The notes under the pieces are model-generated. The model ran no database searches. It had not been told where the DNA came from and saw only the letters and a program-made list of their open reading frames with translations. A DNA stretch of 32,506 nt from Gammaproteobacteria bacterium. Lineage in GTDB: Bacteria; Pseudomonadota; Gammaproteobacteria; JACCYU01. Below are positions 1,146-15,804 of this stretch, in pieces. The stretch is taken from positions 1 to 32,506 of the forward strand of contig JACCYU010000038.1 in assembly GCA_013696315.1 (NCBI GenBank). The letters are read 5' to 3'. The position numbers and the translations under genes were made by a program. Every line of letters begins with the position of its first letter. Within the stretch, counting starts at the first letter, position 1.

Positions 1146-1335
1146 CTATGCCTTCAGCTGCGGCTCGCTTGGCGCGTCGCCCAAGCCCGCGTTGATCTGT
1201 TCGATTTCCACGTCACTTAATGGCTCACGCCATTTATCGATGGAGGTCGTTTTGATCTCCGGCGACGTTAGCGGGCACGACAAATCTAGAATTGGCCGCG
1301 CCCAGCAGAAATGGCAACCGCATCGCCTGGTTCAT
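1146..1335 (-). pseudogene. Remnant of an internally deleted sulfotransferase
   Basis: Two short pieces in different frames look like the two ends of one sulfotransferase. An ATG that overlaps the stop of the upstream glycosyltransferase (ATGA) opens a 33-codon frame (1234-1335). Its start, with FLLGAANS, resembles the beginning of a sulfotransferase 5'-phosphosulfate loop (family pattern FLxGxxxSGTT). In another frame, ending at a TAG at 1146, the sequence reads TSIDKWREPLSDVEIEQIN, which matches the usual C-terminal end of PF00685/PF13469 sulfotransferases (W-R-x-x-L-s-x-x-E). The roughly 200 residues expected between are absent. The reading is by eye; the C-terminal part is the stronger half. 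If right, the cluster once carried a further sulfotransferase here. Confidence 0.45.
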
Positions 1336-2276
1336 TGCTCTGGAAAAGGTCCGCGCCGGCCTCGCACGCCGTGCCAGATACCCACTGTCATCATTCGCAG
1401 ATGCTGCCGGCGAGGCGCCGTTATCGTCGAGTAGAAGACGTATTTCAGGACCAGGCGGCGAGCATCATTGAGAACCCAGGCCCACGATGCGTAGGGGCGT
1501 TTGTACAGATGTATGGCATTACGAAAAAAGTAGTAGTGTCGAAGCGGACCGTGTACGACGACCCGGCGCTTTTTCATCCACGGCAGCGCCACGTCGGTAT
1601 CGCCTAAGCAATGCTCGATGTGGGCCTCGTAAACACCGTAACAATGGTATCCCTTCGATCGCGCTCGCAAGCCCCACTCGATGTCCACGTAATCGATAAA
1701 TAAAGCCTCCTCCATTTCGCCCACGATCTCTAGCTTTTCCAGCTCGATGAGACTGCCTGAGGAAATGACGTAGTCGAGCTGCTGGCATTTTCCGCCCGCC
1801 CTGGTCTCGACGACTTCGCCCGCCGACCAGCCTTGAGCCACCGCGGAAAGCGCTGCTTGCTTCCGTCTTACATGCAAGAACCGAGGCGCCACAGCGGCCA
1901 CCGATTTCCCTTCGGCTTTAAGAGAAATCTCCGCCGCGAGCAGCCGCACCACCAGGTCGGGCGCCACCACGCTATCCTGATCCATCAGGAGGACATGGGT
2001 AAACCCCCGCGCTTGTGCCCATGTCGCGCCCACGTTCTGGCCGCCCGCCACGCCCCGGTTATGGCCCAGTGCCAGCACGGTGACGGTCAACCCGACTATC
2101 GCCTCACACAAGTCGTGTCGACCCGGCGTGTTGTCGACGATCAGCACAGCCTGAACCTGCGCGTAGATCGCATGTAGCGCTGCTCTAAGCATGCTCGTGT
2201 CCGGGAAATAAGCCACCACGATGGCACACACCTGAGCGCTGTTCTCGGTTGATTGAGTGCGTAATTTCACGCTCAT
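1332..2276 (-). CDS. GT2 glycosyltransferase, rhamnosyltransferase-like
   Basis: A family 2 glycosyltransferase of 314 residues that resembles bacterial rhamnosyltransferases (RfbF/TIGR01556 type), which move rhamnose from dTDP-rhamnose onto a growing glycan at the cytoplasmic face of the membrane. Visible features are an N-terminal beta-strand and nucleotide-binding region (LIVDNT near residues 45-50), the GHNRGVAGGQN segment (71-81), DQDS as the DxD-like metal/nucleotide site (99-102), ISSGSL (171-176) and FIDYVDIEW (193-201), all typical of this family. I chose the ATG at 2276; an in-frame GTG at 2306 would add 10 residues of low-complexity sequence. It follows the methyltransferase gene by 97 bp. 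Substrate is inferred from family and from the rfb genes in the same cluster. Confidence 0.85.
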   Translation of the reverse strand: MSVKLRTQSTENSAQVCAIVVAYFPDTSMLRAALHAIYAQVQAVLIVDNTPGRHDLCEAIVGLTVTVLALGHNRGVAGGQNVGATWAQARGFTHVLLMDQDSVVAPDLVVRLLAAEISLKAEGKSVAAVAPRFLHVRRKQAALSAVAQGWSAGEVVETRAGGKCQQLDYVISSGSLIELEKLEIVGEMEEALFIDYVDIEWGLRARSKGYHCYGVYEAHIEHCLGDTDVALPWMKKRRVVVHGPLRHYYFFRNAIHLYKRPYASWAWVLNDARRLVLKYVFYSTITAPRRQHLRMMTVGIWHGVRGRRGPFPEQ

Positions 2277-2373
2277 CTGCGATGGCTCAGGCGGGCCAGG
2301 TGACACGAGCGCTGCTTATCTTGACCTTCAGCTCATTCACGGTCACCGCATAGCGCGGCTGCTTGCCGGGCCG

Positions 2374-3291
2374 TCAGCGGAAACGGGAACTCAGCACTCC
2401 CGCGGCTCGTCTCACGAACTGGTTTCCCTTGAGGCGCGCTAGCCACGGTTGAGGCTCGGGAGGCTGTTCGTTGCGCGGTCTCTCCCACGCCAGATCTTTT
2501 TCTATCTTGTCCAGTAACTGTAGCCGGTCGAGTTTTACTCCTTCTCCCGAGCGACTCAGACTTATGAAAAACTCGCAACCTACGGTCTCAAAGAAACCGA
2601 CTTCCTTGAGGGGTGTCAGACCCAGAGAATGCAGGTCATGCATGAGCAAACGGAAAGAATGGGGGGTAAAGCACCAGGCGTGGATATCGTAATACACCCC
2701 TTTGGCACGAATCTGATCGATCGCAGCGCGGGCGTGGTCAATCGTGTGCACAAACGTGTAATCCGCTTGATGGTACTGATCCCACGCGATACGCCCCCCT
2801 TTAGCAACGACGTTCAGGAAATACTCGGCGGCGACACCCGGCGTATGGATCACGTTTTTCTGGATGTGGCTGTCGATGACGCGCGCGATGCCGGTAATGG
2901 GTCGGAATCGATCGAAACAAAACCGCTTGTCAGGTACGGCCAGAGAAAGGATACCGTCGTCCTTGAGCAAACTTTCACAGTCATTTAGAAAACCCACGAG
3001 ATCCGGCGTGTGCTCGACAACGTGCGAGGCAATGATCCAGTCGTAGAACTTACTCTTGCCGATCAGCTCCGCGTATGGTTGTCCATTCCAAACGAAATCT
3101 ACATCCTCGATTTTTTTTAAGTTGACCTTGTGATCTTTGTACTTTTCGACTAGTCCTTCTCTGCTCATGTGGTCGATGATGTGAACCCTGTAACCCTCTT
3201 TCTTGGGCGCGATCGGGTTAATGCTGGGACCGATCTCGAGTCCCAGTCCGTCCTTTCTCAGATAATGAAAGACTTTGTCTTTTCGCGTCAC
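2374..3291 (-). CDS. Class I SAM-dependent methyltransferase (305 aa)
   Basis: A Rossmann-fold methyltransferase of the Methyltransf_11/23 type. The SAM-binding motif I appears as LEIGPS (residues 18-23), and the motif around ASHVVEHTPDL (88-98) with the following LLKDDGILSLAVPD is typical of this class. The C-terminal third carries a histidine- and tryptophan-containing region (near HAWCFTPHSF) and a charged tail. Its start lies 3 bp after the stop of a sulfotransferase gene, so it is part of the glycan operon. The likely role is O-methylation of a sugar in the polysaccharide or of its chain end; the acceptor cannot be read from sequence. A role outside glycan synthesis is less likely because of the packing. 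Confidence 0.8.
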   Translation of the reverse strand: MTRKDKVFHYLRKDGLGLEIGPSINPIAPKKEGYRVHIIDHMSREGLVEKYKDHKVNLKKIEDVDFVWNGQPYAELIGKSKFYDWIIASHVVEHTPDLVGFLNDCESLLKDDGILSLAVPDKRFCFDRFRPITGIARVIDSHIQKNVIHTPGVAAEYFLNVVAKGGRIAWDQYHQADYTFVHTIDHARAAIDQIRAKGVYYDIHAWCFTPHSFRLLMHDLHSLGLTPLKEVGFFETVGCEFFISLSRSGEGVKLDRLQLLDKIEKDLAWERPRNEQPPEPQPWLARLKGNQFVRRAAGVLSSRFR

Positions 3292-3294
3292 GAG

Positions 3295-4164
3295 CTATGA
3301 TCCCGGTTGTGCATACGCTCCTCCTCGCTCGAGTTGTTCCTTCAAGGAAGTCGGGAAGGCGTATCTTAAAAAATCCTCCGCGTAGAGTGCCGCGACTCGC
3401 TCTTCGAGGTCCGCATCATAAAATGCGCGATAATCTGGAATCACTGCGCTTTTTTTGTCCGCGAAATCATAAACCGTATCGCCGCTGAACTTCTCGTTAG
3501 CACACGATGATGTACGCGTATGGTGGGATGATTCACGGTAGTCGTCTGGATCCGTCCGCGGCAAGGCGAGCACCCGTTCCAGCTTCGGGAGCAAAGCCAT
3601 GGAATGATCCAGATCGATTATGAAACGGGAGCCCCGCACAAAATAACGCTCAAGCGGATGGACCTGCATGCGATGATGGACGTTACAGGTGCACAGATCG
3701 ATGGTTTCGAGATATGCAACGAATTCCCTGAAAGTAAACCCGCTGTGTTGGTCGACGGGCCGACCCAGAAAGACGGATACTCTGGCATCCTCGTAACCGC
3801 AACAAGCCGCGTGAATGTAAGAGCTGACGGCGCGCTTATGTGGGTTCCGGACGATTTTAATTGCCCGGTATCCCTCGAAAGAATTGAGAAAGTCGCGCAC
3901 GGATGCCTTGTGGGCTGGTCCTGCGTAAAGCTTTGCGACACGAAATTTATGTACCCACTGATCGTGCGCCAGCGCCTCCTGCAGAAGCCCCATATGATCA
4001 AGCATCCATTTAACGGCGAATGTACAACCCGCCTTGGCGCTCCAGAGAAGCATCAGCTTGTGTTGCGAATCGAGTATCGGGCGAGGACGCGTCGCGAGGC
4101 AGCGGATCACTTTCTGCTTCTCCTCGCGAACTCGATCTGATCGAAGAGGCGTTCGATCGATCAT
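3295..4164 (-). CDS. Carbohydrate sulfotransferase, tandem copy 1 (289 aa)
   Basis: A PAPS-dependent sulfotransferase of the type that modifies carbohydrates (best fit Sulfotransfer_2, PF03567). The 5'-phosphosulfate-binding loop is WSAKAGCTF (residues 41-49) and the 3'-phosphate-binding region is VRNPHKRAVSSY (105-116), with the Arg and Ser of the R...S signature present. Further conserved stretches shared with its two neighbours are CNVHHRMQ, FIIDLDHS and YRESSHHTR. It starts 3 bp after the frameshifted copy 2 and ends 3 bp before the methyltransferase. It is closest to copy 2 at the DNA level (long near-identical runs around 3967-4050 versus 4797-4880), so the two arose by recent duplication. 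The acceptor sugar is unknown. Confidence 0.85.
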   Translation of the reverse strand: MIDRTPLRSDRVREEKQKVIRCLATRPRPILDSQHKLMLLWSAKAGCTFAVKWMLDHMGLLQEALAHDQWVHKFRVAKLYAGPAHKASVRDFLNSFEGYRAIKIVRNPHKRAVSSYIHAACCGYEDARVSVFLGRPVDQHSGFTFREFVAYLETIDLCTCNVHHRMQVHPLERYFVRGSRFIIDLDHSMALLPKLERVLALPRTDPDDYRESSHHTRTSSCANEKFSGDTVYDFADKKSAVIPDYRAFYDADLEERVAALYAEDFLRYAFPTSLKEQLERGGAYAQPGS

Positions 4165-4167
4165 GGT

Positions 4168-4979
4168 TTAACTACCGAGTGTCGTTGAGAATCCGTAGAG
4201 TAGAAAATCTTCCACATATAGATCATTAACGCTTCGCTCTAAGTCCACGTCGTAGAATTGACGAAAGCCGGGCAGCTCTCGCTTGGACTTTGGCGTTACG
4301 CGTAGCAGCGCATCTCCGCTGAACTCGGTGGCGAGACGCGCGGACGGCCGCGTGTGGTGGTGCGATTGCCGGTAACGGTTCAATTTCGATCGCGATAGGC
4401 CGAGCAGATGTTCGAGTCTGGGCAGCAATACCATGGAGTGGTCGAGATCAATCACAAAACGCGTTCCCGGCGCGAAAGCCCGCTCGATGAGGTGCGTCTG
4501 CAAGCGATGGTGTATGTTGCACGCATTCAGGTCGTTTCCAGATAGCCAACGAACTCCCGAAAGGAATAACGGTTCTCCGCATCGACGGCTCGGCCAAGAA
4601 ACGTCGCCATGGGTACATCTTCGTAGCCGCACTGCGAAGCGTGTATATAGGAGCTCAAGGCGCGCTTGAACGGATTCCTGACGATCTTGACAAAACGGTA
4701 ACCGGCGGGCTCGTCGACGAAGTCCCGAACTGCCGCCTTGTGCGCCGCGCTTTTGTATAGCTTTTGAATGCGGTAATGATGAACCCAACGATGATGCGCC
4801 AGCGCCTCCTGCAGCAACCCCATGTGACCGAGCATCCATTTTACCGCGAATGTACAGCCCGCCTTGGCGCTCCAGAGAAGCACCACCTTGTGTCGAGAAT
4901 CTACGATCGGCTCCGGCGGCGCCACTATCAACTTGTGAAGCCGGGATTGCTCAAGGTCAAATCGCGTGCGGACTCTCAT
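4168..4979 (-). pseudogene. Sulfotransferase, tandem copy 2, frameshifted
   Basis: The middle of three tandem sulfotransferases is broken. The first 150 codons (4527-4979) carry WSAKAGCTF and VRNPFKRALSSY as in copy 1. The family resemblance then continues in another frame from CNIHHRLQ through FVIDLDHS and QSHHHTR to a stop at 4168. In the other copies the junction reads YLETxDL; here the DNA goes from GAA-AC straight to GAC-CTG at about 4533-4535, four bases short of the expected spacing. Restoring four bases would give about 271 residues, between copies 1 and 3 in length. No slippery heptamer is visible. The ATG overlaps the stop of copy 3 (ATGA). Either the gene is inactive or there is a sequence error; the N-terminal part alone lacks the second half of the fold. 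Confidence 0.85.
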
Positions 4980-5767
4980 GCCTGATTACGACGCTCTTCG
5001 TCCAGCGACGGGCTAAAGCCGTAGCGCACGAGATCCTCCGCATACAGACTGGCAACGCGGTCTGTTAATTCCGCGTCATAGAAGCCGCGATAACCCGGCA
5101 TCTCGGGAGCGGCTTTGTCGTAGATGTCAAAAACTTTGTCGCCGTGAAAATCACCAGACTCGCTGGACGGCTTGCGGGTGTGATGGTGCGATTCGCGAAA
5201 TTGATTAGGGTCCGTTTTCGCAAGCGACAAGAACGATTCAAGTTTTGGAAGTGTTTGCAGAGAACAGTCCAGATTGACCAGAAACATCGATGCCAGCATG
5301 CGGTGGCGCTCCAGTGCGTGCGCCTGCAATTGATGATGGATATTGCAATTGGTCAGATCCACGGTTTCGAGATAGCGGAGGAACTCATTGAAAGAAAAGC
5401 GATGGGTAGCGTCGATTTCGCGCCCGAGAAATTCGCTCAGCCCGGCATCTTCGTATCCAAATCGAGCGGCCTGTATATAAGAACTGACGGCCCGCTTGAA
5501 GGGTGGCCGGACGAACTTTATCGCGCGGTAGTCGCCGGGCGCGCGCAGGAAATCATCGACCGCGGCGCTGTATTGCTGACTGGGATACAAAGTCTCCACG
5601 CGATACTTGTGAACACGCGGAAATGCCGCGTCGAAAACGCCCATGTGGAAAAAAATCCATTTCACGACGAAGGTGCATCCTGCTTTCGCGCTCCACAGCA
5701 CAATCAGCTTGTTACGTGAGTCGATTATCGGCTGCGGATTGATGCGCAGCAGTGTATCTAGTTCCAT
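4976..5767 (-). CDS. Carbohydrate sulfotransferase, tandem copy 3 (263 aa)
   Basis: An intact member of the tandem sulfotransferase set and the first to be translated. The 5'-phosphosulfate loop is WSAKAGCTF (residues 25-33) and the 3'-phosphate site is VRPPFKRAVSSY (86-97). Here Pro replaces the Asn that follows the Arg in the other copies, while the Arg and Ser used for PAPS binding remain. CNIHHQLQ and RESHHHTR are shared with copies 1 and 2, but overall it is the most diverged of the three. The start is supported by GGAG eight bases before ATG. It overlaps copy 2 by 4 nt (ATGA). It probably transfers sulfate from PAPS to a sugar hydroxyl of the cluster's polysaccharide; the exact acceptor is unknown. 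Confidence 0.85.
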   Translation of the reverse strand: MELDTLLRINPQPIIDSRNKLIVLWSAKAGCTFVVKWIFFHMGVFDAAFPRVHKYRVETLYPSQQYSAAVDDFLRAPGDYRAIKFVRPPFKRAVSSYIQAARFGYEDAGLSEFLGREIDATHRFSFNEFLRYLETVDLTNCNIHHQLQAHALERHRMLASMFLVNLDCSLQTLPKLESFLSLAKTDPNQFRESHHHTRKPSSESGDFHGDKVFDIYDKAAPEMPGYRGFYDAELTDRVASLYAEDLVRYGFSPSLDEERRNQA

Positions 5768-5788
5768 TAGACGTCTCCGTGACTTTAC

Positions 5789-5872
5789 TTATGGAATGCC
5801 GCGCGCGAGCCTCGCCGAAGCCCGTTGGAGTGCGGCCATAATTGCCGGCTTCAGCCGGTGGCGCGGATTCAT
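5789..5872 (-). CDS. Possible 27-residue coupled ORF
   Basis: A short frame begins with an ATG that shares one base with the stop of the upstream methyltransferase (TGATG) and ends in TAA at 5789, 21 bp before the start of sulfotransferase copy 3. It encodes a basic, alanine- and arginine-rich peptide of 27 residues. It may serve only to keep ribosomes moving across the gap, or be the leftover N-terminus of a lost gene. No family is recognised, and it may not be a real gene. Confidence 0.2.
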   Translation of the reverse strand: MNPRHRLKPAIMAALQRASARLARGIP

Positions 5873-6675
5873 CAAACTGTTGCCGCAAGGGTCACCGCCG
5901 GGCCGTGCGGGTGATTCGCGTCATCGTGAATGATATGAACCTCGTTGTATGCGCTCTGCCGCAGCATACGTTCCAGTGCTGGCAAAGTCGGCCAGAAGGA
6001 TTCCTGCGACATGCCGCTCAATGGATCGCCGAGACCGCTTTCCCGGTACCACTTGCCGCGATAGCCGTTGACTTCCACATTGCCGTCACCGGTGGCGTAA
6101 TGCGTCCACATAAAGAATCCGGGGCTGACCTTTGCGCACTGATCCAGAAGCTTCCAGGGCTCGGGCAGGTGGTACAAGAGTCCGGAGCAGAAAACCGCGT
6201 CGAACCGACCCCAGTCGGTAAGGTCCGTTTGCTCGAGATTGACTTCGTGAAACTCAACCTCGCCGACGCCAAGCAGCTGCTGAACCAGACGTGCGCGCTC
6301 GATATTGGAAGCCCGGCCCTCCAGACCCACGATACGCGTTACCTGAGGAGCCGCGGCCAGCCCGAAACTATGGCCGCCTTCCAGCGCGCCGAGTTCAAGA
6401 ATAGTTTTGACCTCGGAGAATCGCGCGCGGAACTGCTCCAGGCGCACATCGTTCATGGCGTCAAAGGCGCCGCCATAAGCCACGCCGTTTATCCAGAACC
6501 GCGTAACCCACGGCTGACGCTGGTCAAATTCGCGCGCGATTGCGGCTGCTCGCGCATCGTCGTCACGGGCCGCGTCGCCCTGCGACGTGTCGGCCTGGGG
6601 CGTAGTGTCGGTGCTCTGGTGATCCGTCCGCGCGCGATTACCCGCGAACAGACGCTGGCGAATCCTGTTCCACAC
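5872..6675 (-). CDS. Class I SAM-dependent methyltransferase (267 aa)
   Basis: A second methyltransferase of the glycan operon. After a polar, probably disordered N-terminus (about residues 12-45, rich in Asp, Thr and Arg) comes a Rossmann fold with motif I LELGALEGGHS (93-103), the acidic end of beta-2 in VGLEGR (116-121), and FCSGLLYHLPEP (162-173) as the post-motif region. The start is GTG at 6675, supported by GGAGG five bases upstream. It is not clearly similar to the methyltransferase at 2374-3291, so the two probably act on different positions. The sulfotransferase gene upstream ends 81 bp before. The acceptor is inferred to be the polysaccharide or its lipid-linked intermediate. Confidence 0.8.
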   Translation of the reverse strand: MWNRIRQRLFAGNRARTDHQSTDTTPQADTSQGDAARDDDARAAAIAREFDQRQPWVTRFWINGVAYGGAFDAMNDVRLEQFRARFSEVKTILELGALEGGHSFGLAAAPQVTRIVGLEGRASNIERARLVQQLLGVGEVEFHEVNLEQTDLTDWGRFDAVFCSGLLYHLPEPWKLLDQCAKVSPGFFMWTHYATGDGNVEVNGYRGKWYRESGLGDPLSGMSQESFWPTLPALERMLRQSAYNEVHIIHDDANHPHGPAVTLAATV

Positions 6676-6756: not shown

Positions 6757-7575
6757 CTATCCTGGCGCCGCGGCGGCCGCGTGCACGCCGGCGACGATGC
6801 GTCGCACATAGCCGGAACATTCGTCCGGTTTCAGCACCGGGTCTGGGTCCAGCGCCCAGTCAGTGTAGCCATGCCGGATGAGCAGCGGCTCGTAAAGATC
6901 GCGTAATTGTTCGACATCGCCAGGGGTAAAAAACCGCTTCCAGTTATTATAGGCAGCGGTTCGACGCGTCCAGTGATATTCGCCTACATGGCGATCGTCC
7001 GACACCTCGAATCCCAGATACGATTCCAGACTATCGAGCCGGTCCTCGATAAAATCCTCATACTTGATGACGTGGATCCTTTTCGCATGCTTGTCGAGAA
7101 ATCGTAGGTAACGCTGATCCACAGGCGGGCACGGCGCCACCTTCGTTCCAAAGATGCCATTCAGTTGCTCGATCATGCCCAGAAAAGAGATGGCATGGGG
7201 ATCCCGCTCCTTTTCCTTCAGCACATCCAGCCACGCATCCATAAGCCGGGTTTCCACACCCCGTTGCGCCAGCGGCAGCGCGATGTAAAAAAGCCGACTG
7301 ATCGCCTCATCACGCAGATCGCGCACGATCGCGACGATACGCTTGAACTTGAGCGGCAGTTCGTTATGCATAATGGCCTCGCGCAGGTTCGGAGTCGGAT
7401 CCCAGTGCTCGTAGATGATCTTCACCACACACGGGAGCGCGGGCTGCGCGGGCCTCATGAAAAAACCGACCTTCTTGGGTTCCAGATAATATAGCGAATC
7501 CTTCATGGAGGCTTGGATCGATTTCGAGATAATCGTGGTGCCGGTCTTGCCCTTGCCGATAACCAGAATATTCAT
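6757..7575 (-). CDS. Sulfotransferase-fold protein (272 aa)
   Basis: A P-loop sulfotransferase unlike the tandem trio. The 5'-phosphosulfate loop is KGKTGTT (residues 8-14) directly after the first beta-strand, and RIVAIVRDLRDEAISRLFY (79-97) is the 3'-phosphate-binding strand and helix with Arg and Ser in place. A later segment (HVIKYEDFIED) fits the sulfotransferase fold, where a Y-E-D motif is common. The start overlaps the stop of the 1074-residue fusion protein by 4 nt (ATGA), so translation is probably coupled. It probably adds sulfate to a sugar of the exported glycan. Because the family is broad, the acceptor remains open. Confidence 0.75.
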   Translation of the reverse strand: MNILVIGKGKTGTTIISKSIQASMKDSLYYLEPKKVGFFMRPAQPALPCVVKIIYEHWDPTPNLREAIMHNELPLKFKRIVAIVRDLRDEAISRLFYIALPLAQRGVETRLMDAWLDVLKEKERDPHAISFLGMIEQLNGIFGTKVAPCPPVDQRYLRFLDKHAKRIHVIKYEDFIEDRLDSLESYLGFEVSDDRHVGEYHWTRRTAAYNNWKRFFTPGDVEQLRDLYEPLLIRHGYTDWALDPDPVLKPDECSGYVRRIVAGVHAAAAAPG

Positions 7576-10500
7576 CCGTTTTGTTTTCCTTCCAGCGCCG
7601 CCGCATGGTGCCTTTCGCCGGATGAGGTCAGCTCAGTCAAAAAGTTAATCCAGGGTCTGCTAGCGCGCGTCTCGTGGGCCAGAGTGAAATCTTCCCTGTC
7701 GAGCGTCAGGTTGGGGCTGTAGTAGGGATCTTGCAGCAAAGTGTCCCCCCAGTGATCTTTCATCCACAGTACTTCTCTCGCGAACCGCTCAATCTTCTCC
7801 GGCGCCGTGTCCGTGCCGCGCGAGGCCGACTCCAGATGGTAGAGCTCCGCGTGCGGCGTCCATATAATGCGATAGCCCAGCGCGCGTATACGCAGGCACA
7901 AATCCACATCGTTGAACGCAATCTTGAGGTTCTCTTCGTCCAGCCCGCCGCACTCGTCGATTATTTCACGCCGCATAAGCAGACAGGCGCCGGTGACGGC
8001 GCTCACGCTCTGAACGAGAGTCAGCCTGTCGAAGTATCCGTGATGCCCGCGCGGAACGTGCTTGTGAGAGTGTCCGGCGACGCCCCCGATGCCCAGAATG
8101 ACACCAGCGTGTTGAACGGTGTCATCCGGATAGTACAACATCGCGCCCACTGCGCCGACTTCGGGTCTCACGGCGTGGCTTACCAGCTCAGTCAGCCAAT
8201 CCTCGTTGATGACGACAATATCATTGTTGATCAGGCCGATGATGTCCCCTCTGGCCTGACGCATGGCGAAGTTGTTGATCGCCGAGTAATTGAATGCCTG
8301 ACCATAATCGATGACCTGAACTCTGCTGTCCACCGACACGCTCGTAAGGTAGGCATGCGTTTCCGGCTCAACGCTCCCATTATCAACGATGATCACCTCC
8401 AGCGGCGAATAGGTCGTCTTGAACAGGATGCTGTCGATGCATTGCTGCAGGAGATCGACTTTATCCTTGGTCGGTATGATCAAGGAAACCAGGGGCGCGG
8501 GCTGTGGGACGGATCGCCGTATGCGCTGGTAGTGTGGGGAGTCTGGCGCGGTTTCCACCTCCGCATCGATGTCAAGCCGGGCAAAATGCTCTCTGATTGC
8601 CGTATGGGCCGCCGTTACCGCCCGCGCCCGCTGGCTCTGGGAGAACGAAGCGGCCGCCGAAGTATTTCTCCAGTGGTACAGGATTTCAGGAATGTGCACG
8701 ATATCCCGCGGGGCCGAGCGCTCGATTATGCGCAGGGCAAGATCATAGTCCTGACTGCCCTCGAAGCCTAAGCGGAAGCCAGAAATCTCCTTGACCGCGG
8801 AAGCTCGATAGACGCCCAGATGGTTGATTATGTTCTGTCCGTAGAACAGGTCTGGATTCCAGTCCGTCTTGAAGTACGGCGTATTGCGTTTATCGTGTTC
8901 GTCGATCTTGTCTTCATCGGAGTAGATGATGTTGGCGCTCGGGTGCTTGTTGATCGCGACGGCAACCGTGTACAGGGATTTCTCGGGCAGGGCGTCATCG
9001 TGATCCAGGAGCGCGAAATAATCACCCGTAGCGAGCGCTATCGCGCTGTTGCTGCAAGCAGAGATATTGCCGTTCTCGGTGCGTACCACGACCTTGATCC
9101 TCCTGTCCTTGCCTTCGTATTCGCGCAGAACCCCGGCAACATACGGCTCGGTCGAACAGTCGTCGGCAATACAGAGCTCCCAGTGATCGTAGAGCTGATC
9201 CAGGACCGACTGGATGGCGCTACGCAGGAACCGCTCTGGCGGATTGAATACCGGCATAATGACCGAGATCAGCGGCTTTCTCGCAAGCGTCGCGATGTGC
9301 CGCTTTATCGCGGCGCGATCGTCATCGTCAAGCGTATCGTTGGCCTTTATCCAATCTTGATACTTTCTGTTGGACGCCGAGGAGGCGGCATCCTTTAGGA
9401 ATTCGCCAACCCTCGGCCTCAAGGCAACCGCGTGCGCTTTCAATCGCAGCTTGTTGTTGTACGACATCGGGAATCGATCAAACACCCAGCGCAGGCTGCG
9501 CGCGAGCGGGCCGCGCAACGCGCCGGCGCAGCTTTGCAGCCCGGTTTTGACCCCTCGTAGTGGCGCCGTTACACGCCAGCTGGTCGACGACTGCAGCGCC
9601 GTGATCGCTCCGGCCAGCGAGGTGATCGTGGAAGCCTGTTCTCGGAGCGCGCCATCGCGCACCGCAACAATGTCTTGCAGATGGTTTATTTCCGCCAGCC
9701 GGCTCGCAGCCTGCTGTGTGACGTTCGCCAGCTCGTGGCTAAGCTGGTTGATCTCCGCCAACCGGCTGGTCGACTGCTGCGTGACGGTCGCCAGCTCGTG
9801 GCTAAGCTGGTTGATCTCCGCCAGCCGGCTGGTCGACTGCTGCGTGACGTTCGCCAGTTCATGCCGAAGCTTGTTTATCTTTCCTGTAGCGGCGTTTATG
9901 CGGAGATTGGCCGAGTGCAATTCAGTCGCGAGTGCTGTTTTTTGCGTGCGCGCGTCATCGATGACCGCCCCGAACAGAAATGACGCCTCGGTGAGCGTTT
10001 TTTCCAGCGCGGACAAAGCCGTTGATCCTTGCGACTGATCATCGCTTATCGTCGATGCGTAATCGTCGTAGACCCGCCGGATCAGCGTGAGGCGTTCGTC
10101 GTTGTCCAGATCGTCACGGCTGCTGGCATGATGCCGCAGGTCCGTTTGCAGGAAAGAGTCGATTTCGCGCGACGTTGAAGGGTCCACGGTCAGCTCATCC
10201 AGTCCGAGCTGCCGCCAGGCCGGCGTCATCGCCGCGCGCCAGTCCGCCATCAACTGCTCATAGCTGACATACGCGCGAGGCTGACCGCGCGTCCATCGTT
10301 CCGCCTCCAGAACGTGCCGCAGCCACAGCAGATGCGATTGACAATGATGCAATCCATCCCGGGCGCTCAATGAGCGGGCCACGTCCAGCGGATTACGTAC
10401 CGGGAGCAGATAATGCGGCTCCCACTTTATCTCGTCGAATATGCCTTTCCACAACGGCATGAGCCGGCACATTCTGGGATCTTTGAGACAGGCAAGTGCC

Positions 10501-10796
10501 GCGCCTGCAAATTCTTCCCGCACCACGTGGATCAAGCGATCCCTGAATTCGGAGACTACGGAGTTCCGCCACCAGTTCGCGGGCAGCGGTGCGGTCGCAT
10601 CCCAGGACGAGCCAAGCGCCTGCAGCAGTTCGTCATGAATAACCCTGACCTCGTCAAGCTCCCAGAAGCCGGCGGGATTATTGCCTTCGCTGGGCGGCAT
10701 CAGCTGTTCGCCGATCTGGGCGCCCAGCAGATTGCACACCCGCGCCACCGCGGAGGTGCCGCTTCGGTGCATGCCCAGGATGACGATGATGTGCAT
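7572..10796 (-). CDS. Sulfotransferase - coiled coil - GT2 - GT2 fusion (1074 aa)
   Basis: A large modular protein. Residues 1 to about 250 form a sulfotransferase-type domain with phosphosulfate loop GMHRSGTS (8-15) and 3'-phosphate region VRNPLDVARSL (133-143). Residues about 265-390 are a coiled coil containing near-identical 21-residue (three-heptad) repeats. A linker with TSWRVTAPLRG follows. A first GT2 domain begins near residue 500 (LISVIMPVFN, ADDCS, LLDHDDALPE) and a second near 765 (LVSLIIPTKDK, IVDNGS, NNDIVVINEDWL), a double-GT2 arrangement known from rhamnan and O-antigen glycosyltransferases. The protein may therefore both extend and sulfate the chain. It lies 20 bp after wzt and overlaps the next sulfotransferase by 4 nt. 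It lacks transmembrane segments, so it probably works at the inner face of the membrane. Specificities are not known. Confidence 0.88.
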   Translation of the reverse strand: MHIIVILGMHRSGTSAVARVCNLLGAQIGEQLMPPSEGNNPAGFWELDEVRVIHDELLQALGSSWDATAPLPANWWRNSVVSEFRDRLIHVVREEFAGAALACLKDPRMCRLMPLWKGIFDEIKWEPHYLLPVRNPLDVARSLSARDGLHHCQSHLLWLRHVLEAERWTRGQPRAYVSYEQLMADWRAAMTPAWRQLGLDELTVDPSTSREIDSFLQTDLRHHASSRDDLDNDERLTLIRRVYDDYASTISDDQSQGSTALSALEKTLTEASFLFGAVIDDARTQKTALATELHSANLRINAATGKINKLRHELANVTQQSTSRLAEINQLSHELATVTQQSTSRLAEINQLSHELANVTQQAASRLAEINHLQDIVAVRDGALREQASTITSLAGAITALQSSTSWRVTAPLRGVKTGLQSCAGALRGPLARSLRWVFDRFPMSYNNKLRLKAHAVALRPRVGEFLKDAASSASNRKYQDWIKANDTLDDDDRAAIKRHIATLARKPLISVIMPVFNPPERFLRSAIQSVLDQLYDHWELCIADDCSTEPYVAGVLREYEGKDRRIKVVVRTENGNISACSNSAIALATGDYFALLDHDDALPEKSLYTVAVAINKHPSANIIYSDEDKIDEHDKRNTPYFKTDWNPDLFYGQNIINHLGVYRASAVKEISGFRLGFEGSQDYDLALRIIERSAPRDIVHIPEILYHWRNTSAAASFSQSQRARAVTAAHTAIREHFARLDIDAEVETAPDSPHYQRIRRSVPQPAPLVSLIIPTKDKVDLLQQCIDSILFKTTYSPLEVIIVDNGSVEPETHAYLTSVSVDSRVQVIDYGQAFNYSAINNFAMRQARGDIIGLINNDIVVINEDWLTELVSHAVRPEVGAVGAMLYYPDDTVQHAGVILGIGGVAGHSHKHVPRGHHGYFDRLTLVQSVSAVTGACLLMRREIIDECGGLDEENLKIAFNDVDLCLRIRALGYRIIWTPHAELYHLESASRGTDTAPEKIERFAREVLWMKDHWGDTLLQDPYYSPNLTLDREDFTLAHETRASRPWINFLTELTSSGERHHAAALEGKQNG
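9681..9880. repeat. 63-bp tandem repeats inside the fusion gene
   Basis: Two full 63-bp units (9711-9773 and 9774-9836) differ at only a few bases. They are flanked by a partial unit on each side (about 9681-9710 and 9837-9880). Each unit encodes 21 residues, exactly three heptads of the coiled coil, with the core SHELA(T/N)VTQQ. Copy number could vary between strains by slippage without breaking the frame. Confidence 0.9.
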
Positions 10797-10816
10797 TGGT
10801 GTGCGTCCGTGTGCGG

Positions 10817-11596
10817 TCAGGCTGGATGCCGCTTTCTGGCCAGACGTGCGCGTGGCCGACGCGGCGCCGTCAGGTCGTCGTCGCCATATTGACTCAGCAC
10901 CTCGTCCACACTACCGACCATTTTTGTTACGCCTTTTTCGATCCACACCACGCGGTCGCACAACGCGCGGATCTGCGCGGTCGCATGCGACACAATCACC
11001 ACAGTCTTGTCGGACTTGATCTTTTCGCGCAGCAGGGCGCTCGATTTTCGCTTGAAATCCGCGTCTCCCACGCCCAGCGCCTCGTCCACCAGCAGGATGT
11101 CGGGGTCGGAAAGAAACGCCACCGCGAAACCGAGCCGCGCCTTCATGCCGGCGGAATAGATGTTGAGGTGCTGGTCGATGAAATCCTCAAGACCGGAAAA
11201 GGCGATGATCTCGTCCATGTTGCGCTCGACTTCGCGACGCCGGATGCCCATCAGCATGCCGCTCAGGATCGCGTTCTGGCGCCCGCTCAGATTAGGGATG
11301 AAGCCGATGCGCAACGACAGCATCGCGGCGTGCAGATCGCCCCGCTCCACAGCCCCAAGGTCCGGTTCGATGATGTCCGCGATCACCTTCAACAGGGTGC
11401 TCTTGCCCGCCCCGTTGCCACCGATGACACCGAGACTCTCACCGCGGCGCAGTTCGAATGAAATATCGCGCAGCGCCCAGAACGGCTTGCGGCTGAACAG
11501 GCCGCTGCGACGCTGATAGGAAACGCCGACGTTACGCAGCCGCAGCGCGATCCTGGGATCGAGCAATGCCTTCGGATCAGCCGGGCCGCCGTTCAC
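10817..11596 (-). CDS. wzt: ABC transporter ATP-binding protein for polysaccharide export
   Basis: The ATPase of a two-gene polysaccharide exporter (Wzt/RfbE/KpsT group). Walker A is GGNGAGKST (residues 59-67), the signature is YSAGMKARL (147-155), which is typical of O-antigen and teichoic acid exporters, Walker B is ILLVDEAL (167-174), and a VSHAT switch histidine lies near 203. At 259 residues it has only a nucleotide-binding domain plus a short basic tail. The C-terminal carbohydrate-binding domain of long Wzt proteins such as that of E. coli O9a (over 400 residues) is missing, so chain-end recognition by Wzt itself is unlikely. The start is GTG, overlapping the wzm stop (GTGA). It powers flipping of the undecaprenyl-linked glycan across the inner membrane. 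Confidence 0.92.
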   Translation of the reverse strand: MNGGPADPKALLDPRIALRLRNVGVSYQRRSGLFSRKPFWALRDISFELRRGESLGVIGGNGAGKSTLLKVIADIIEPDLGAVERGDLHAAMLSLRIGFIPNLSGRQNAILSGMLMGIRRREVERNMDEIIAFSGLEDFIDQHLNIYSAGMKARLGFAVAFLSDPDILLVDEALGVGDADFKRKSSALLREKIKSDKTVVIVSHATAQIRALCDRVVWIEKGVTKMVGSVDEVLSQYGDDDLTAPRRPRARLARKRHPA

Positions 11597-12354
11597 GAGA
11601 TGGCCAGCTTGGCGTAGCGCCGGTCAAAGCGCGTCAGCAGATAAAGCGCCGAGGCCAAGCCGAGCAGCGCGACCAGCAAGACGATGCCCATCGCCGACCA
11701 GTCCGGCCAGACGCCCTCAAGCAGCACCGCGCGGTAACTCTCGATCACCGTGACCATCGGATTCAGATAGAAATAGACACGCAAGTCGGCAGGAAACGTG
11801 GAGATGTCATAGAAAATGCCCGACATGAAAAGCATCAAGGTCAGCCCGTTCTCGATGAGAATCCTCAGATCGGGCACAAACGGCACCACCGCCGCCAGCA
11901 GCGAGGCGCACGCGGCGATCAGCAGAAACTGAATCACCATCAGCACCGGCAGGGCCAGCCAGGTCATGCTCAGCGTTTGCTCCACGAGCACTAAATATAT
12001 AAGGTACAGCGAGAACACGATCAAAAACCTGAGCGTGTTGGTCACCAGCGCGATGGCGGGGAACAGGTACTTCGGCAGATAGACCTGCAACATCAGCCGG
12101 GCATTCGCCGGAATGGCGTTGGCGCAACGAATGACCGAGCTGCCGAACCAGCGCCAGATCATCAGGCCGCACAACAGGAACGATACAAAGCCTTCCCCGC
12201 CCCGGCCCAGTAGCACACCGAACACCAGATAAAAAACCGACATGTAAAGCAGCGGCTCCAATACCCACCACAGCATGCCCAGGTACGCACGCGCGGCCTC
12301 GGCGCGCAAATCTGCGCAGGCCTTGTACCAGACCAGCTCGAGATAGTGATGCAT
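11593..12354 (-). CDS. wzm: ABC transporter permease for polysaccharide export
   Basis: The membrane subunit that pairs with the ATPase encoded next to it. The 253-residue protein has about six hydrophobic segments. Its N-terminal LRAEAARAYLGMLWWVLEP stretch is the conserved start of ABC2-type polysaccharide permeases (cytoplasmic helix followed by TM1). The segment LRVYFYLNPMVTVIESYRAVLLEG before the last helix is likewise typical of this family. It starts 28 bp after rfbB and overlaps wzt by 4 nt. Together they export a lipid-linked glycan made fully in the cytoplasm, which implies that sulfation and methylation happen before export. I see no wzx or wzy gene in the window. Confidence 0.92.
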   Translation of the reverse strand: MHHYLELVWYKACADLRAEAARAYLGMLWWVLEPLLYMSVFYLVFGVLLGRGGEGFVSFLLCGLMIWRWFGSSVIRCANAIPANARLMLQVYLPKYLFPAIALVTNTLRFLIVFSLYLIYLVLVEQTLSMTWLALPVLMVIQFLLIAACASLLAAVVPFVPDLRILIENGLTLMLFMSGIFYDISTFPADLRVYFYLNPMVTVIESYRAVLLEGVWPDWSAMGIVLLVALLGLASALYLLTRFDRRYAKLAIS

Positions 12355-12382
12355 TATCGATGCGGTAGTCGAGTATGGATTT

Positions 12383-13480
12383 TCACAGCAGGCGCGGCGC
12401 GTCCGCGTCCCTGACCTTGGGCGCGTATTGCGCCTTTATCCACCCCTTGTAGCCCGCATCCAGCAGCGCCTGCCACCACGCCTCGTTCGCCATGTACCAC
12501 GCCAGGGTCTTGCGCAGCCCGCTCTCGAAGCTTTCGCGCGGGTCAAACCCAAGTTCGGCCGCCGCCTTGTCCGCGTCAATGGCGTAACGCCGGTCGTGGC
12601 CGGGCCTATCCTTGATGAACGTAATCAACTCTCCATGCGGCGCGGGAGACGGCGCGGCCTCATCCAGCAGCGCGCACAGCATCCGCACGACCTCAATGTT
12701 GGTTCTTTCGCACTGGCCGCCGAGGTTGTAGGTCTCCCCCACGCGCCCGTGCTCCAGCACTAGCGCGATGCCGTGGCAATGGTCTTCGACGTAAAGCCAG
12801 TCGCGCACGTTGAGCCCATCGCCGTAAACAGGCAGCGGCTTGCCCTGCAGGGCGTTGATCAACATCAGCGGGATGAGTTTTTCGGGAAACTGATAAGGCC
12901 CGTAGTTGTTGGAGCAGTTGCTGGTGGTGACGTTGAGGCCATAAGTATGATGGTAGGCGCGCACCAGATGATCGCTGGCGGCCTTGCTGGCGGCATATGG
13001 CGAATTTGGCGCGTACGCCGTAGTCTCGCGAAACGGCGGATCGTTCGGCGCCAGGGTGCCGTACACCTCATCGGTCGAACAGTGATGAAAACGGTGGTGC
13101 GCACGTCGCGATGAATCGGGCGCATCCAGCCATACATTTTTCGCCGCCTTGAGCAGGCTGTGCGTTCCGAGCACGTTGGTTTCGATAAAGGCGTCCGGTC
13201 CCAGGATGGACCGATCTACGTGCGATTCCGCCGCGAAGTGCACGAGCAGGTCGATGGATTCTTTTTCCAGAAGACCTTCCACCATTGCCTGATCACGGAT
13301 ATCGCCATGTACGAAACGAAAGCGGGGATTGCCCTCCGCCGCGGTGAGGCTCGCGCGATTGCCGGCGTATGTCAGTGCATCCAGCACGACGACCCGATCC
13401 TCGGGATGCTCACCCAGCCAGGAGTGCACGAAGTTCGCGCCGATGAAGCCCGCGCCGCCGGTAACCAGCAGCCTACGCAC
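12383..13480 (-). CDS. rfbB: dTDP-glucose 4,6-dehydratase
   Basis: It catalyses the second step of dTDP-L-rhamnose synthesis, dTDP-glucose to dTDP-4-keto-6-deoxyglucose. The NAD-binding GGAGFIG motif is at the N-terminus, followed by HFAAESHVDRS, the catalytic TDE stretch in STDEVYG and the YAASK catalytic Tyr/Lys pair, all diagnostic for RmlB. I chose the GTG at 13480 because AAGGAG ends seven bases before it. A TTG at 13486 is also in frame but lies only one base beyond that site. The product is 365 residues, the usual length. It overlaps the end of rfbD by 8 nt. The order A-C-D-B differs from the classical B-D-A-C order of enteric bacteria but is known in other lineages. Confidence 0.96.
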   Translation of the reverse strand: MRRLLVTGGAGFIGANFVHSWLGEHPEDRVVVLDALTYAGNRASLTAAEGNPRFRFVHGDIRDQAMVEGLLEKESIDLLVHFAAESHVDRSILGPDAFIETNVLGTHSLLKAAKNVWLDAPDSSRRAHHRFHHCSTDEVYGTLAPNDPPFRETTAYAPNSPYAASKAASDHLVRAYHHTYGLNVTTSNCSNNYGPYQFPEKLIPLMLINALQGKPLPVYGDGLNVRDWLYVEDHCHGIALVLEHGRVGETYNLGGQCERTNIEVVRMLCALLDEAAPSPAPHGELITFIKDRPGHDRRYAIDADKAAAELGFDPRESFESGLRKTLAWYMANEAWWQALLDAGYKGWIKAQYAPKVRDADAPRLL

Positions 13481-14372
13481 GGTCAAGCTCCTTGAGCATC
13501 GCGCGCAGCGACATCCGCCAGTGCGGCGCCTTGTAACCCAGCGTCTGCCAGATCGCGGATTTGTCCAGCACGCTGTAAGCCGGCCGCCGCGCCGGCAGTG
13601 GATATTCGCCCGTAGCTATCGGCTCGATCGGAATTTCCCGGCTCAGCAGACCAAGGGTCAGCGCCTCTTCCTGTATCGCCACAGCGAAATCGTACCAGCT
13701 CGCCACGCCGGCATCGGTCCAGTGGTACTTGCCCGTCAGCTTTGCTTCCAACGCGCGCCAGATGCAATCGGCAAGCCCGCCCGCCCAGGTGGGCGATCCT
13801 ATCTGATCGTCCACCACCCGCAGCGCATCGCGGCTCGCCATCAGGCGCAACATGGTATGCACAAAGTTGCCGCCATGCGACGAGTACACCCAGGCAGCGC
13901 GCACGATAAGCGCCTCGCGCGTCAGCACATCCAGCACGGCCTGCTCGCCGGCGAGCTTGGTGGCGCCATAAACGCATCGCGGCGCGGGGGCGTCATCGAC
14001 CAGATACGGGCTGCCCTTCGCGCCATCGAAGACGAAATCGGTGGAGACGTGTACCAGGCGGGCACCACACTCACGCGCGGCTCTCGCCAGATTCGCCGCG
14101 CCATCCCGATTGACCGCGTGTGCGAGCTCCGGCTCCTCTTCGGCCCGATCCACCGCCGTATACGCTGCGGCGTTGATAATCGCTTGCGGACGCAGCCGAC
14201 CCACAATGGCATCGACGGCCGCGGCGTCGGTGATATCCATGGACTGACGATCGAACGCACGCAGCGAATAAGTGAGTTGCTGCGCCCGGCGCTGTGTCTC
14301 CCATCCCAACTGACCATTCGCGCCCGTGAGCATGATCACCGGCAATGATTGATTTTCTTCGGCAACCTTCAT
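13473..14372 (-). CDS. rfbD: dTDP-4-dehydrorhamnose reductase
   Basis: It catalyses the last step to dTDP-L-rhamnose, with NAD(P)H as reductant. GANGQLG (residues 17-23) is the nucleotide-binding loop, INAAAYTAVDRAE follows beta-4, STDFVFDG and YGATKLAGE provide the catalytic Thr and Tyr-x-x-x-Lys residues of the RmlD family. At 299 residues the length is normal. An internal ATG at codon 14 would start just ahead of the nucleotide-binding strand, so the true start may be there. The annotated ATG overlaps the rfbC stop by 4 nt. Confidence 0.96.
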   Translation of the reverse strand: MKVAEENQSLPVIMLTGANGQLGWETQRRAQQLTYSLRAFDRQSMDITDAAAVDAIVGRLRPQAIINAAAYTAVDRAEEEPELAHAVNRDGAANLARAARECGARLVHVSTDFVFDGAKGSPYLVDDAPAPRCVYGATKLAGEQAVLDVLTREALIVRAAWVYSSHGGNFVHTMLRLMASRDALRVVDDQIGSPTWAGGLADCIWRALEAKLTGKYHWTDAGVASWYDFAVAIQEEALTLGLLSREIPIEPIATGEYPLPARRPAYSVLDKSAIWQTLGYKAPHWRMSLRAMLKELDRA

Positions 14373-14926
14373 GCGGAGTACATCGGTAGTCCTGACGGCG
14401 GGATCTGATCCAGCGGCGACGCACTGTCATCTTTGGCCGACAGTTCGGGGCGTTTCAGCGGCCAATCGACGCCAACGCGCGGATCGTTCCACGCGACCGT
14501 ACCCTCCGCTTCCGGCTGGTAGTAATCGGTGCACTTGTAAGCGAACAGCGCCGTCTCACTGGTCACGCAAAATCCGTGCGCGAAGCCGGCGGGCACCCAT
14601 AGCTGCCGCTTGTTGTCGGCGGACAAGCTCGCCGCGAACCATTTGCCGAACGCGGGAGACCCTTGCCGGATATCCACGGCCACATCGAATACTCCTCCCT
14701 GCAAGACATACACCAGCTTGCCCTGCGCGTGCGGGTGCTGAAAGTGCAGACCGCGCAGCACCCCAAAGCGCGAGAACGAAACATTGTCCTGCACGAACGG
14801 GCCCACGATACCCCCCTCGGCGTAGCGCCGCGCCTGAAAGGCTTCCATGAAAAACCCCCGCGCATCACCGACGAACTTTGGTTTGACGATCAAGACGCCC
14901 GGCAACGATGTCTCAACGATCCTCAC
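14369..14926 (-). CDS. rfbC: dTDP-4-dehydrorhamnose 3,5-epimerase
   Basis: The cupin-fold epimerase of dTDP-rhamnose synthesis, converting dTDP-4-keto-6-deoxyglucose to its L-lyxo form. RGLHFQ (residues 58-63) holds the catalytic His, [18 protein letters not shown] is the conserved beta-strand, and the segment with FAYKCTDYY carries the conserved Tyr. The length of 185 residues is standard. It overlaps rfbA and rfbD by 4 nt each (ATGA type), so the four rfb genes are translated as a unit. Confidence 0.96.
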
Positions 14927-15804
14927 ATCAATTTTCCGTCGGTCAGGATCCCACGCAGATACTCGCCATAACCACTTTTATCCAGCGGCGCCGCGAGCCG
15001 CTCCAGCGCTTCGGCGTCGATAAAGCCCATGCGATAGGCGATCTCTTCCGGACAGGCTATTTTCAGACCCTGCCGTTCCTCCACCACCCTGATGAAGGTC
15101 GCCGCGTCCAGTAGCGCGCCGTGCGTACCGGTATCCAGCCAGGCCGTGCCTCGGCTTAAGATCTCCACGGTGAGATCTCCGCGTTCGAGATAGGCCTTGT
15201 TCACGTCGGTAATCTCGAATTCCCCGCGCGACGACGGCCGTATATGTCGGGCGATGTCGACCACGTCGTTGTCGTAAAAATAAAGGCCGGTCACCGCGTA
15301 ATGGGACTCCGGCGCCGCGGGTTTCTCTTCGATGCGGGTTACACGGCGGTCGCGATCGAACGAAACCACGCCGTACTGACTTGGATTGCTGACGTAATAG
15401 CCGAACACGGTAGCCCCGGTGTCACGCTGACTCACCGCCTGCAGGCGTTTAGTGAAACCTTCGCCATAAAAAATATTGTCGCCCAGGGTAAGGGTCACCG
15501 GATCGGTACCGACGAACTGCTCGCCGACGATAAACGCCTGCGCCAGCCCATCGGGCCGCGACTGCACCGCGAACGACAGCGACAAGCCCCACTGCGATCC
15601 GTCGTTCAGCAGGTTAAGGAACGCGGCCTGATCGCGCGGTGTGGTGATGATGAGAATATCGCGGATGCCGGCCAGCATCAGCGTCGCCAATGCGTAGTAA
15701 ATCATAGGCTTGTCGTACACGGGCATAAGCTGCTTGCTCACCGAATGGGTGAGCGGATAAAGCCGCGTGCCCGAGCCGCCGGCGAGGATAATACCCTTTC
15801 TCAC
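14923..15804 (-). CDS. rfbA: Glucose-1-phosphate thymidylyltransferase
   Basis: The first enzyme of dTDP-L-rhamnose synthesis: glucose-1-phosphate plus dTTP to dTDP-glucose. [14 protein letters not shown] near the N-terminus is the nucleotide-binding signature, [14 protein letters not shown] follows, and [10 protein letters not shown] and [10 protein letters not shown] are typical RmlA motifs. The start is GTG at 15804; an in-frame TAA lies three codons upstream, so no longer form is possible. AGGA is present about a dozen bases upstream. It is the first gene of the glycan operon. The 95 bp before it hold a hairpin and no gene. Confidence 0.96.

Follow-up and report, generated by a model that had tools for sequence, protein, structure and literature searches.

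The window analysed in this study, a stretch of 32,506 nucleotides on contig C38 of the gammaproteobacterial source genome G000, carries a surface-glycan operon that forms a single minus-strand block running from position 15804 to position 1146. With a probability of about 0.78, this operon makes a sulfated, methylated and L-rhamnose-containing surface polysaccharide, either an O-polysaccharide or a capsule-like glycan, by the ATP-binding cassette (ABC) transporter route. This reading is carried by the gene content of the block, the identity of its sulfotransferases, the presence of genes for the synthesis of 3'-phosphoadenosine 5'-phosphosulfate (PAPS) in the same assembly and the purifying selection seen on those genes that were tested; sulfate, rhamnose and methyl groups on the glycan are predictions.

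Gene content and conservation of the operon

The G000 assembly comprises 3.05 Mb in 280 contigs and is 96% complete. A Pfam scan of the window genes, which covered positions up to 22279, recovered the dTDP-rhamnose synthesis genes rmlA, rmlC, rmlD and rmlB with scores far over the Pfam cut-offs, and the Wzm/Wzt exporter through matches to ABC2_membrane and ABC_tran (Table 1). Moreover, three glycosyltransferase family 2 (GT2) domains were found by profile in two proteins (a fusion protein and a rhamnosyltransferase-like GT2), together with two methyltransferases. All of these genes had been named in a first-pass annotation made from the letters of this stretch. Wzm and Wzt thus stand beside glycosyltransferases and nucleotide-sugar genes, which is the arrangement that defines ABC-transporter-dependent O-polysaccharide or capsule loci. 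The genes mostly adjoin with 4-base overlaps or short gaps, the biggest gap being 104 bases. The genes uvrA and ssb lie next to the operon, and this neighbourhood would fit a gammaproteobacterial origin.

The compact minus-strand cluster of that annotation was found in its place, and the congeneric genome G001, in which the whole block aligns over 20.6 kb at 88% DNA identity, argues against a chance arrangement. In the comparison with G001, the ratio of nonsynonymous to synonymous substitution rates (dN/dS) was 0.05-0.23 across the 15 stretches tested, a set without the GT2 gene at 1332-2306. Purifying selection thus acts on the genes covered, the intact sulfotransferases among them.

Identity of the sulfotransferases

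Six sulfotransferase-like units had been claimed for the operon, and six are recognisable; however, the middle one of three tandem copies (A, B and C) is frameshifted, so that four of the six are intact (the fused domain, the single enzyme, copy A and copy C), two of which score just below the Pfam cut-offs. Profiles, motifs and, for copy C, a predicted fold support the assignment of these proteins to the sulfotransferases. The curated Sulfotransfer_2 cut-off was passed by copies A and C and by the N-terminal part of copy B. For the fused type, 18 of 21 aligned homologues, the window's own included, matched Sulfotransfer_3 at E <= 0.01; this alignment (A3) holds 21 of the 22 long proteins described below, L088 being left out as it is cut by a contig end. 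A profile built from the fused-type members gave solved sulfotransferases as its first matches (E 2e-4). Similarly, the first match of a four-member profile of the single type (A4) was a solved sulfotransferase (E 0.0012), and the homologue of the single enzyme in L082 passed Sulfotransfer_1 with 26.0 bits. Invariant positions were K10, G12, T13, R85 and S93 in the single type (4 sequences), GMHR.GTS with R134, P136 and S142 in the fused type (21 sequences), and WSAK.GCT with R111 and S114 in the tandem-copy type (10 sequences), motifs which we take to be the 5'-phosphosulfate loop and the 3'-phosphate motif of PAPS-dependent sulfotransferases.

The structure of copy C, modelled from a 10-sequence alignment, reached a predicted local distance difference test (pLDDT) value of 82.6. 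In a Foldseek search with this model, the best 50 of 104 matches (E <= 10) were all sulfotransferases, the best being a tyrosylprotein sulfotransferase at E 0.0049, and none reached E 0.001. All 50 rows listed by VIA-align likewise had the sulfotransferase fold (best Z 8.9, root-mean-square deviation 4.1 over 193 residues); two of these 50 were retinol dehydratase, which shares that fold. As the E-values are modest, the predicted fold speaks through the uniformity of the match list. A model of the single enzyme from one sequence was unusable (pLDDT 34.9), and the fold evidence concerns copy C only. A placement of these proteins in unrelated P-loop families, which the first-pass annotation had named as telling against its proposal, was not seen in the hidden Markov model and fold checks.

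Supply of PAPS and proposed assembly route

Elsewhere in the assembly, contig C120 holds cysH, cysD and cysN side by side, and contig C222 holds cysC. CysC (310 bits), CysD (460 bits) and CysN (547 bits) each scored above the cut-off of a fitting model, so the genome holds PAPS synthesis genes as well as sulfotransferases, and PAPS can come from elsewhere, as had been expected from the lack of such genes in the window. An ATP sulfurylase of the PF01747 type was not found in the assembly, CysD and CysN being found instead. G001 also has an adenosine 5'-phosphosulfate (APS) kinase.

We infer a route, its substrates, order of steps, lipid linkage and product included, in which RmlABCD would supply dTDP-L-rhamnose, and chain elongation by the GT2 modules of the fusion and by the rhamnosyltransferase-like GT2 would take place on the inner side of the membrane, with the chain attached to a lipid carrier. 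Soluble PAPS-dependent sulfotransferases (the single enzyme, the fused domain and tandem copies A and C) would decorate the chain in the cytoplasm, as would the methyltransferases, with PAPS from the CysD, CysN and CysC encoded elsewhere in the genome, and Wzm/Wzt would export the finished chain. On the Kyte-Doolittle scale, no stretch of 19 residues exceeds 1.6 in any of the modifying enzymes, the highest value being 1.55 in copy A, which fits cytoplasmic work before export, as was proposed earlier for sulfation and methylation.

Evidence against the proposed product

Several observations weigh against this reading of the operon. A chain-initiating enzyme was not recognised in the scanned part of the window. 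The fused N-terminal domain alone scored 22.6 bits with Sulfotransfer_3, below the cut-off of 27, and the single enzyme scored 20.6 bits with Sulfotransfer_1, just below the cut-off of 22. The G001 orthologue of copy C gave no Sulfotransfer_2 match at E <= 0.1 and a Sulfotransfer_1 match only at 0.076, although copy C of the window passes Sulfotransfer_2. Furthermore, nine more Sulfotransfer_3 places, two of which are parts of one gene, lie outside the window contig, and because the assembly holds these further places, the PAPS supply is shared. The cysC gene (L009, on C222) stands beside a WecA-like transferase gene and other polysaccharide genes, and UDP-sugar dehydrogenase-like and heparinase-like genes were named by eye near it; the PAPS derived from CysC may serve chiefly other loci. 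Finally, CysH also passes two phosphoadenylyl-sulfate reductase models, NF002537 (276.7 against 154) and TIGR00434 (178.2 against 165.1).

The typing of CysH from its sequence thus appears mixed, as the protein passes the APS-reductase model TIGR02055 (265.3 against 235.3), fails the PAPS-reductase model TIGR02057 (143.6 against 254.2) and carries two cysteine pairs, which we assume to mark APS reductases. If CysH is an APS reductase, cysteine synthesis may proceed without a need for PAPS, and CysC would then most likely serve the sulfotransferases.

The low scores of the single and fused units would also be expected if the P-loop proteins were other transferases or kinases. In the same direction, when sequences with solved structures were searched, neither the copy A/C profile nor the single enzyme on its own matched a sulfotransferase, which was counted against sulfotransferase identity, and copy C has no Foldseek match at E 0.001. 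However, the listed fold matches of copy C, 50 in each comparison, all have the sulfotransferase fold, the fused-type and single-type profiles match solved sulfotransferases first and the motifs are conserved, which together make such an assignment very improbable.

Two other sulfotransferase genes of the assembly are recorded here in their own right. One is another Sulfotransfer_2 gene (L002, G000:C37:22371-22772), the frame of which is broken by a TGA right after an RNP motif. The other (L045, 15883-18021, G000:C150) precedes a gene that was named by eye as sulfatase-like.

The fused sulfotransferase

The fusion protein of 1074 amino acids (aa) comprises a sulfotransferase domain (about residues 1-240), a predicted coiled coil (about 233-411) and two GT2 modules (511-670 and 768-991). 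The first-pass annotation recognised the fused sulfotransferase domain, which is present, but missed the coiled coil between this domain and the GT2 modules and treated the domain as a further decorating enzyme. The linker is heptad-rich over about 170 residues, and its signal, scored with a home-made heptad heuristic with shuffling, was reached by 2 of 200 shuffles. Within it lies an in-frame tandem repeat, the unit of which (63 bp) encodes 21 residues, that is, three heptads. The repeat is present in 3.2 copies in the window, 2.1 copies in G001 and at least 2.9 copies, up to the contig end, on contig C77, which carries a second version of the locus. Despite this difference in copy number, the fusions of the window and of G001 (1067 aa) differ by only 7 residues in length.

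The first 400 residues of the fusion were matched in 47 of a sample of 369 genomes of the window's class, its own and the sister genome included, a lower bound as only 5 candidates were scored in many genomes. After four genomes (G349, G166, G322 and G175) that match only from residues 147, 194, 303 and 289 onward, respectively, were dropped, the N-terminal sulfotransferase part is found in at least 43 of the 369, its own and the sister genome again included, often before a coiled coil. A first batch was fetched from 20 places with long open frames; the long ones at G070 and G351:C1:537575 were left out, and G256:C2:1073676, G030 and G366:C14 entered only in the second batch. Together with the window and G001, these gave 22 long sulfotransferase proteins, C77 being excluded because its N-terminal part lies off the contig. 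The linker signal was found at <= 3 of 200 shuffles in 16 of the 22, two were borderline and four had none. The second batch of 16 loci yielded 13 stand-alone proteins, two longer proteins (L112 and L113) that show the linker signal, and one locus with no recognised sulfotransferase (L115). Stand-alone genes adjoin wzt in L102, L103, L105 and L111; the signal was reached by no more than 3 of 100 shuffles in L102, L103 and L111, and by 5 of 100 in L105. Only three of the 13 stand-alone proteins reach <= 3 of 100, one of them (L111) with masked letters in its linker.

The Wzt of the window (259 aa) has no match to PF14524 (Wzt_C), the cap-binding domain, and its best NCBIfam models, galactan Wzt/RfbE and TagH, score below their cut-offs. 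Wzt was recognised near seven of the 20 first-batch loci, where some stretches end early. Among eight Wzt proteins scanned, Wzt_C was found over the cut-off in L081 and L087 and just under it in L111, and in none of the other five, the window's included; for the short Wzt proteins of L080, L082, L086 and L090 length was the sole criterion, and the ABC proteins of L107, L112 and L114 stood outside the scan. Among the loci of other genomes of the class that contain the sulfotransferase module, be it fused or stand-alone, some have a cap-binding Wzt and others lack one. In the G000 assembly, the sole Wzt_C-like match is sub-threshold and lies on contig C8. That contig also carries a polysaccharide locus with three Sulfotransfer_3 places (L044), outside which the Wzt_C match lies. 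Because its Wzt lacks the cap-binding domain, the window locus was kept out of the capped-glycan class, although it may work like a capped-glycan system all the same.

According to the accessible part of the report on the Klebsiella pneumoniae O7 system, ORF6 is built from a methyltransferase-kinase, a coiled coil and two GT2 modules, the coiled coil is an established ruler in related systems, and the terminator modules of WbdD, WbbB and O7 ORF6 act with groups other than sulfate (PMC11231755). As far as that account goes, the fusion of the window resembles ORF6 in having a module at the terminator position, a putative coiled coil and C-terminal GT2 modules. The terminator place, however, holds a sulfotransferase in the window and a methyltransferase-kinase or a Kdo transferase in O7 ORF6, O12 WbbB and WbdD; moreover, unlike in these polymerase-terminator systems, the Wzt of the window lacks a cap-binding domain. 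The sulfotransferase in a terminator place like that of O7 ORF6 is the new point of the window locus.

There is about an even chance that the fused sulfotransferase is a tethered decorator of repeat units, with a coiled coil that only oligomerises the polymerase and holds the enzyme near the chain. A Wzt without Wzt_C needs no cap, the four intact sulfotransferase units of the operon suggest dense internal sulfation, and the domain is also found without a coiled-coil signal. What a decorator leaves unexplained is the frequent place of the domain at the far end of a heptad-rich linker (16 of the 22 long proteins). By analogy with O7 ORF6, the domain could instead be a chain terminator or length gauge, which would sulfate the chain at its growing end as soon as it is long enough to span the coiled coil, the other sulfotransferases decorating internal residues; we regard this role as possible, with the odds somewhat against it. 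The module order reported for O7 ORF6, in which a terminator and a coiled coil precede two GT2 modules at the C-terminal end (PMC11231755), argues for it, as do the heptad signals of the window linker and of most long proteins, the variation of the in-frame repeats in copy number between relatives, the stand-alone genes beside wzt in four loci and the Wzt_C of the neighbouring Wzt in L081, L087 and, just under the cut-off, L111. The absence from the window Wzt of Wzt_C, a hallmark of capped systems, stands against it, and so do the sub-threshold match on C8, the nearly equal lengths of the two fusions, the four long proteins without a signal and the two borderline ones, the recognition of Wzt near only seven of the 20 first loci, the small share of stand-alone proteins with a signal (three of 13, the L111 linker having masked letters) and the home-made nature of the coiled-coil scan.

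That sulfation serves as a chain-terminating chemistry, in which a sulfotransferase module at the far end of a coiled-coil ruler acts on the growing end of an ABC-exported glycan and so sets its length, here without a cap-binding Wzt, is a tentative and rather unlikely proposal. If it held, the ruler could gain or lose whole heptads through the 21-residue repeats. No sulfotransferase chain terminator was found in the open literature searched, which did not cover the census of Mann, Kimber and Whitfield (Glycobiology 2019), and no priority is claimed. That census reportedly foresees further kinds of terminator chemistry, and sulfotransferases may already be among those it lists.

Tandem copies, frameshift and remnant

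Copy B is not one open frame in the window, where 4 bases are missing relative to the copy on C77. Its N-terminal part is identical to the G001 copy at 128 of 149 aligned residues, and its C-terminal part at 97 of 127. In G001, copies A, B and C are all open, and copy B encodes 271 aa with a Pfam score of 43.7 bits. C77 (G000:C77:1-8316, 8.3 kb) is a collinear second version of the locus, with 79-82% DNA identity in long matches; its 3' end differs, and its copy B is frameshifted by a lesion unlike that of the window. C77 could represent a second locus or else sequence from another species that entered the bin. As an explanation for copy B, programmed frameshifting was rejected, since the G001 copy is open and the C77 copy is broken elsewhere.

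A sixth sulfotransferase follows the GT2 gene in G001 as a longer gene in two frames, the pieces of which match Sulfotransfer_3 (49.3 and 22.6 bits). The remnant of the window is explained by this gene, because it matches one stretch of 106 bases at 89% identity near the 3' end of the G001 gene, and about 670 preceding bases are absent. Copy A shows only 70% aa identity between the window and G001, with a synonymous rate (dS) of 1.03 against 0.19-0.49 in the other tested genes, whereas copy A on C77 is close to that of G001 (dS 0.32), which suggests that the copy A allele was exchanged in the window.

These lesions could mean that sulfation is decaying, with the sulfotransferases being lost and the glycan little or not sulfated: copy B is frameshifted both in the window and, by a different lesion, on C77, and the sixth gene is a scrap in the window and frameshifted in G001. 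Nevertheless, the four intact units keep a dN/dS of 0.15-0.22 against G001, the three tandem copies are open there and the frameshifts may be assembly errors, and decay is therefore improbable.

Comparison with known systems

Sulfated rhamnose polysaccharides with ABC export are already known from Vibrio sp. KMM 8419 and from Cobetia marina KMM 1449, and the window locus is a variant of such systems. In the accessible parts of the two reports, the Vibrio capsule is described with dTDP-rhamnose genes, an ABC transporter, sulfotransferases, cysC, cysN and cysD (PMC11641403), and Cobetia with a sulfated rhamnose-containing capsule, dTDP-rhamnose genes, an ABC transporter and sulfotransferases (PMC11766843); in both strains the sulfated polysaccharide was shown chemically (PMC11641403, PMC11766843). 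As far as these accounts go, the three clusters have in common dTDP-rhamnose genes, an ABC transporter, a sulfotransferase by the rhamnose genes and genomic PAPS synthesis. The PAPS genes, however, lie inside the cluster in Vibrio (cysC, cysN, cysD) and Cobetia (cysN/cysC, cysD, cysQ) and on other contigs in the window's genome, and Cobetia has kps export genes where the window has Wzm/Wzt. The three tandem sulfotransferase genes of the window also set it apart from both clusters as reported there, and its fused domain with a coiled coil and two GT2 modules may do so as well. In the wbsalmo cluster of Aeromonas salmonicida, the order of Wzt, a sulfotransferase-domain gene and a WbbB polymerase is the same as in the window (PMC4483657). 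There, the sulfotransferase is a separate protein of 216 aa and Wzt has 438 aa, in contrast to the fused domain and the Wzt of 259 aa in the window, and the authors report no sulfate-type residue in the O-antigen (PMC4483657).

The comparison in related genomes that the earlier annotation had suggested showed that the locus is kept in G001 with open tandem copies. Relatives of the tandem copies were found in three of 94 genomes (G000, itself among the 94, G001 and G017), and when 84,980 genomes of a named collection were scanned by pattern, seven tandem-copy loci emerged (Cyanobacteria, one Gammaproteobacterium and Planctomycetes), some of which also have rml genes, GT2-GT2 proteins and methyltransferases. 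Neither the single enzyme nor the tandem copies had a relative on viral contigs at this pattern-based sensitivity. Compared with copy C, Sulfotransfer_2-like genes show 41% identity in Xenococcaceae, 35-36% in Trichodesmium and 25-31% in metagenome-assembled genomes of Planctomycetes. Two tandem copies stand near rml genes in L024, and L025 has rml, GT2-GT2 and methyltransferase genes; unlike the window, these Sulfotransfer_2-like loci lack a third tandem copy in the stretches fetched, and blastp to the window proteins found no Wzm/Wzt beside them there. An ABC-export locus in L111 (5096-12168) has sulfotransferase-like genes around wzm-wzt, four of them by eye, and many sulfotransferases in one ABC-export locus are thus not unique to the window.

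Features of the window

The features are collected in Table 1. The second methyltransferase (MT2) and the GT2 were considered as one fused protein, as in a 674-aa frame in G001, and this was set aside, because a stop separates the two in the window and the linker of G001 is in a different frame. Outside the operon, a direct-repeat pair of 110 bases with 75% identity was seen at 25435-25777.

Table 1. Features of the surface-glycan operon in the window.
Feature	Position	Strand	Evidence
rmlA, glucose-1-phosphate thymidylyltransferase	14923..15804	-	PF00483 246 bits; 97% aa identity to G001
rmlC, dTDP-4-dehydrorhamnose 3,5-epimerase	14369..14926	-	PF00908 233 bits
rmlD, dTDP-4-dehydrorhamnose reductase	13473..14372	-	PF04321 336 bits
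rmlB, dTDP-glucose 4,6-dehydratase	12383..13486	-	PF16363 293 bits
Wzm, ABC-2 exporter permease	11593..12354	-	PF01061 (ABC2_membrane) 34.5 bits; strongly hydrophobic stretches
Wzt, exporter ATPase, 259 aa	10817..11596	-	PF00005 (ABC_tran) 79.4 bits; without PF14524 (Wzt_C)
Fusion, 1074 aa: sulfotransferase/coiled coil/GT2/GT2	7572..10796	-	Pfam, motif alignment A3, heptad scan
63-bp tandem repeat in coiled coil of fusion	9682..9880	-	3.2 copies
Single sulfotransferase, Sulfotransfer_1-like	6757..7575	-	20.6 bits, cut-off 22
Class I S-adenosylmethionine (SAM) methyltransferase 1	5872..6675	-	PF13847 37.8 bits, PF08241 37.9 bits
Tandem copy A, Sulfotransfer_2, intact	4976..5767	-	23.6 bits, cut-off 22
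Tandem copy B, N-terminal part up to frameshift	4527..4979	-	Sulfotransfer_2 22.5 bits
Tandem copy B, C-terminal part, other frame	4168..4557	-	similarity to G001 copy B; no Pfam match alone
Tandem copy C, Sulfotransfer_2, intact	3295..4164	-	23.4 bits, cut-off 22; predicted fold
Class I SAM methyltransferase 2 (MT2)	2374..3291	-	PF13489 29.9 bits
GT2, rhamnosyltransferase-like	1332..2306	-	TIGR01556 199.4 bits (cut-off 200.55); PF00535 30.5 bits
Remnant, C-terminal scrap of sixth sulfotransferase	1146..1331	-	89% DNA identity over 106 bases to G001 gene; no Pfam match alone

Conclusion

Bacterial polysaccharide sulfotransferases are little characterised, and the locus offers several related ones; copies that are intact exist in a sister genome, and the assembly itself encodes a PAPS supply. 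Should the fused sulfotransferase end chains, it would represent a new terminating chemistry for ruler-type assembly systems, and it could explain the presence of sulfotransferase genes in O-antigen clusters with a seemingly sulfate-free repeat unit, such as that of Aeromonas salmonicida.

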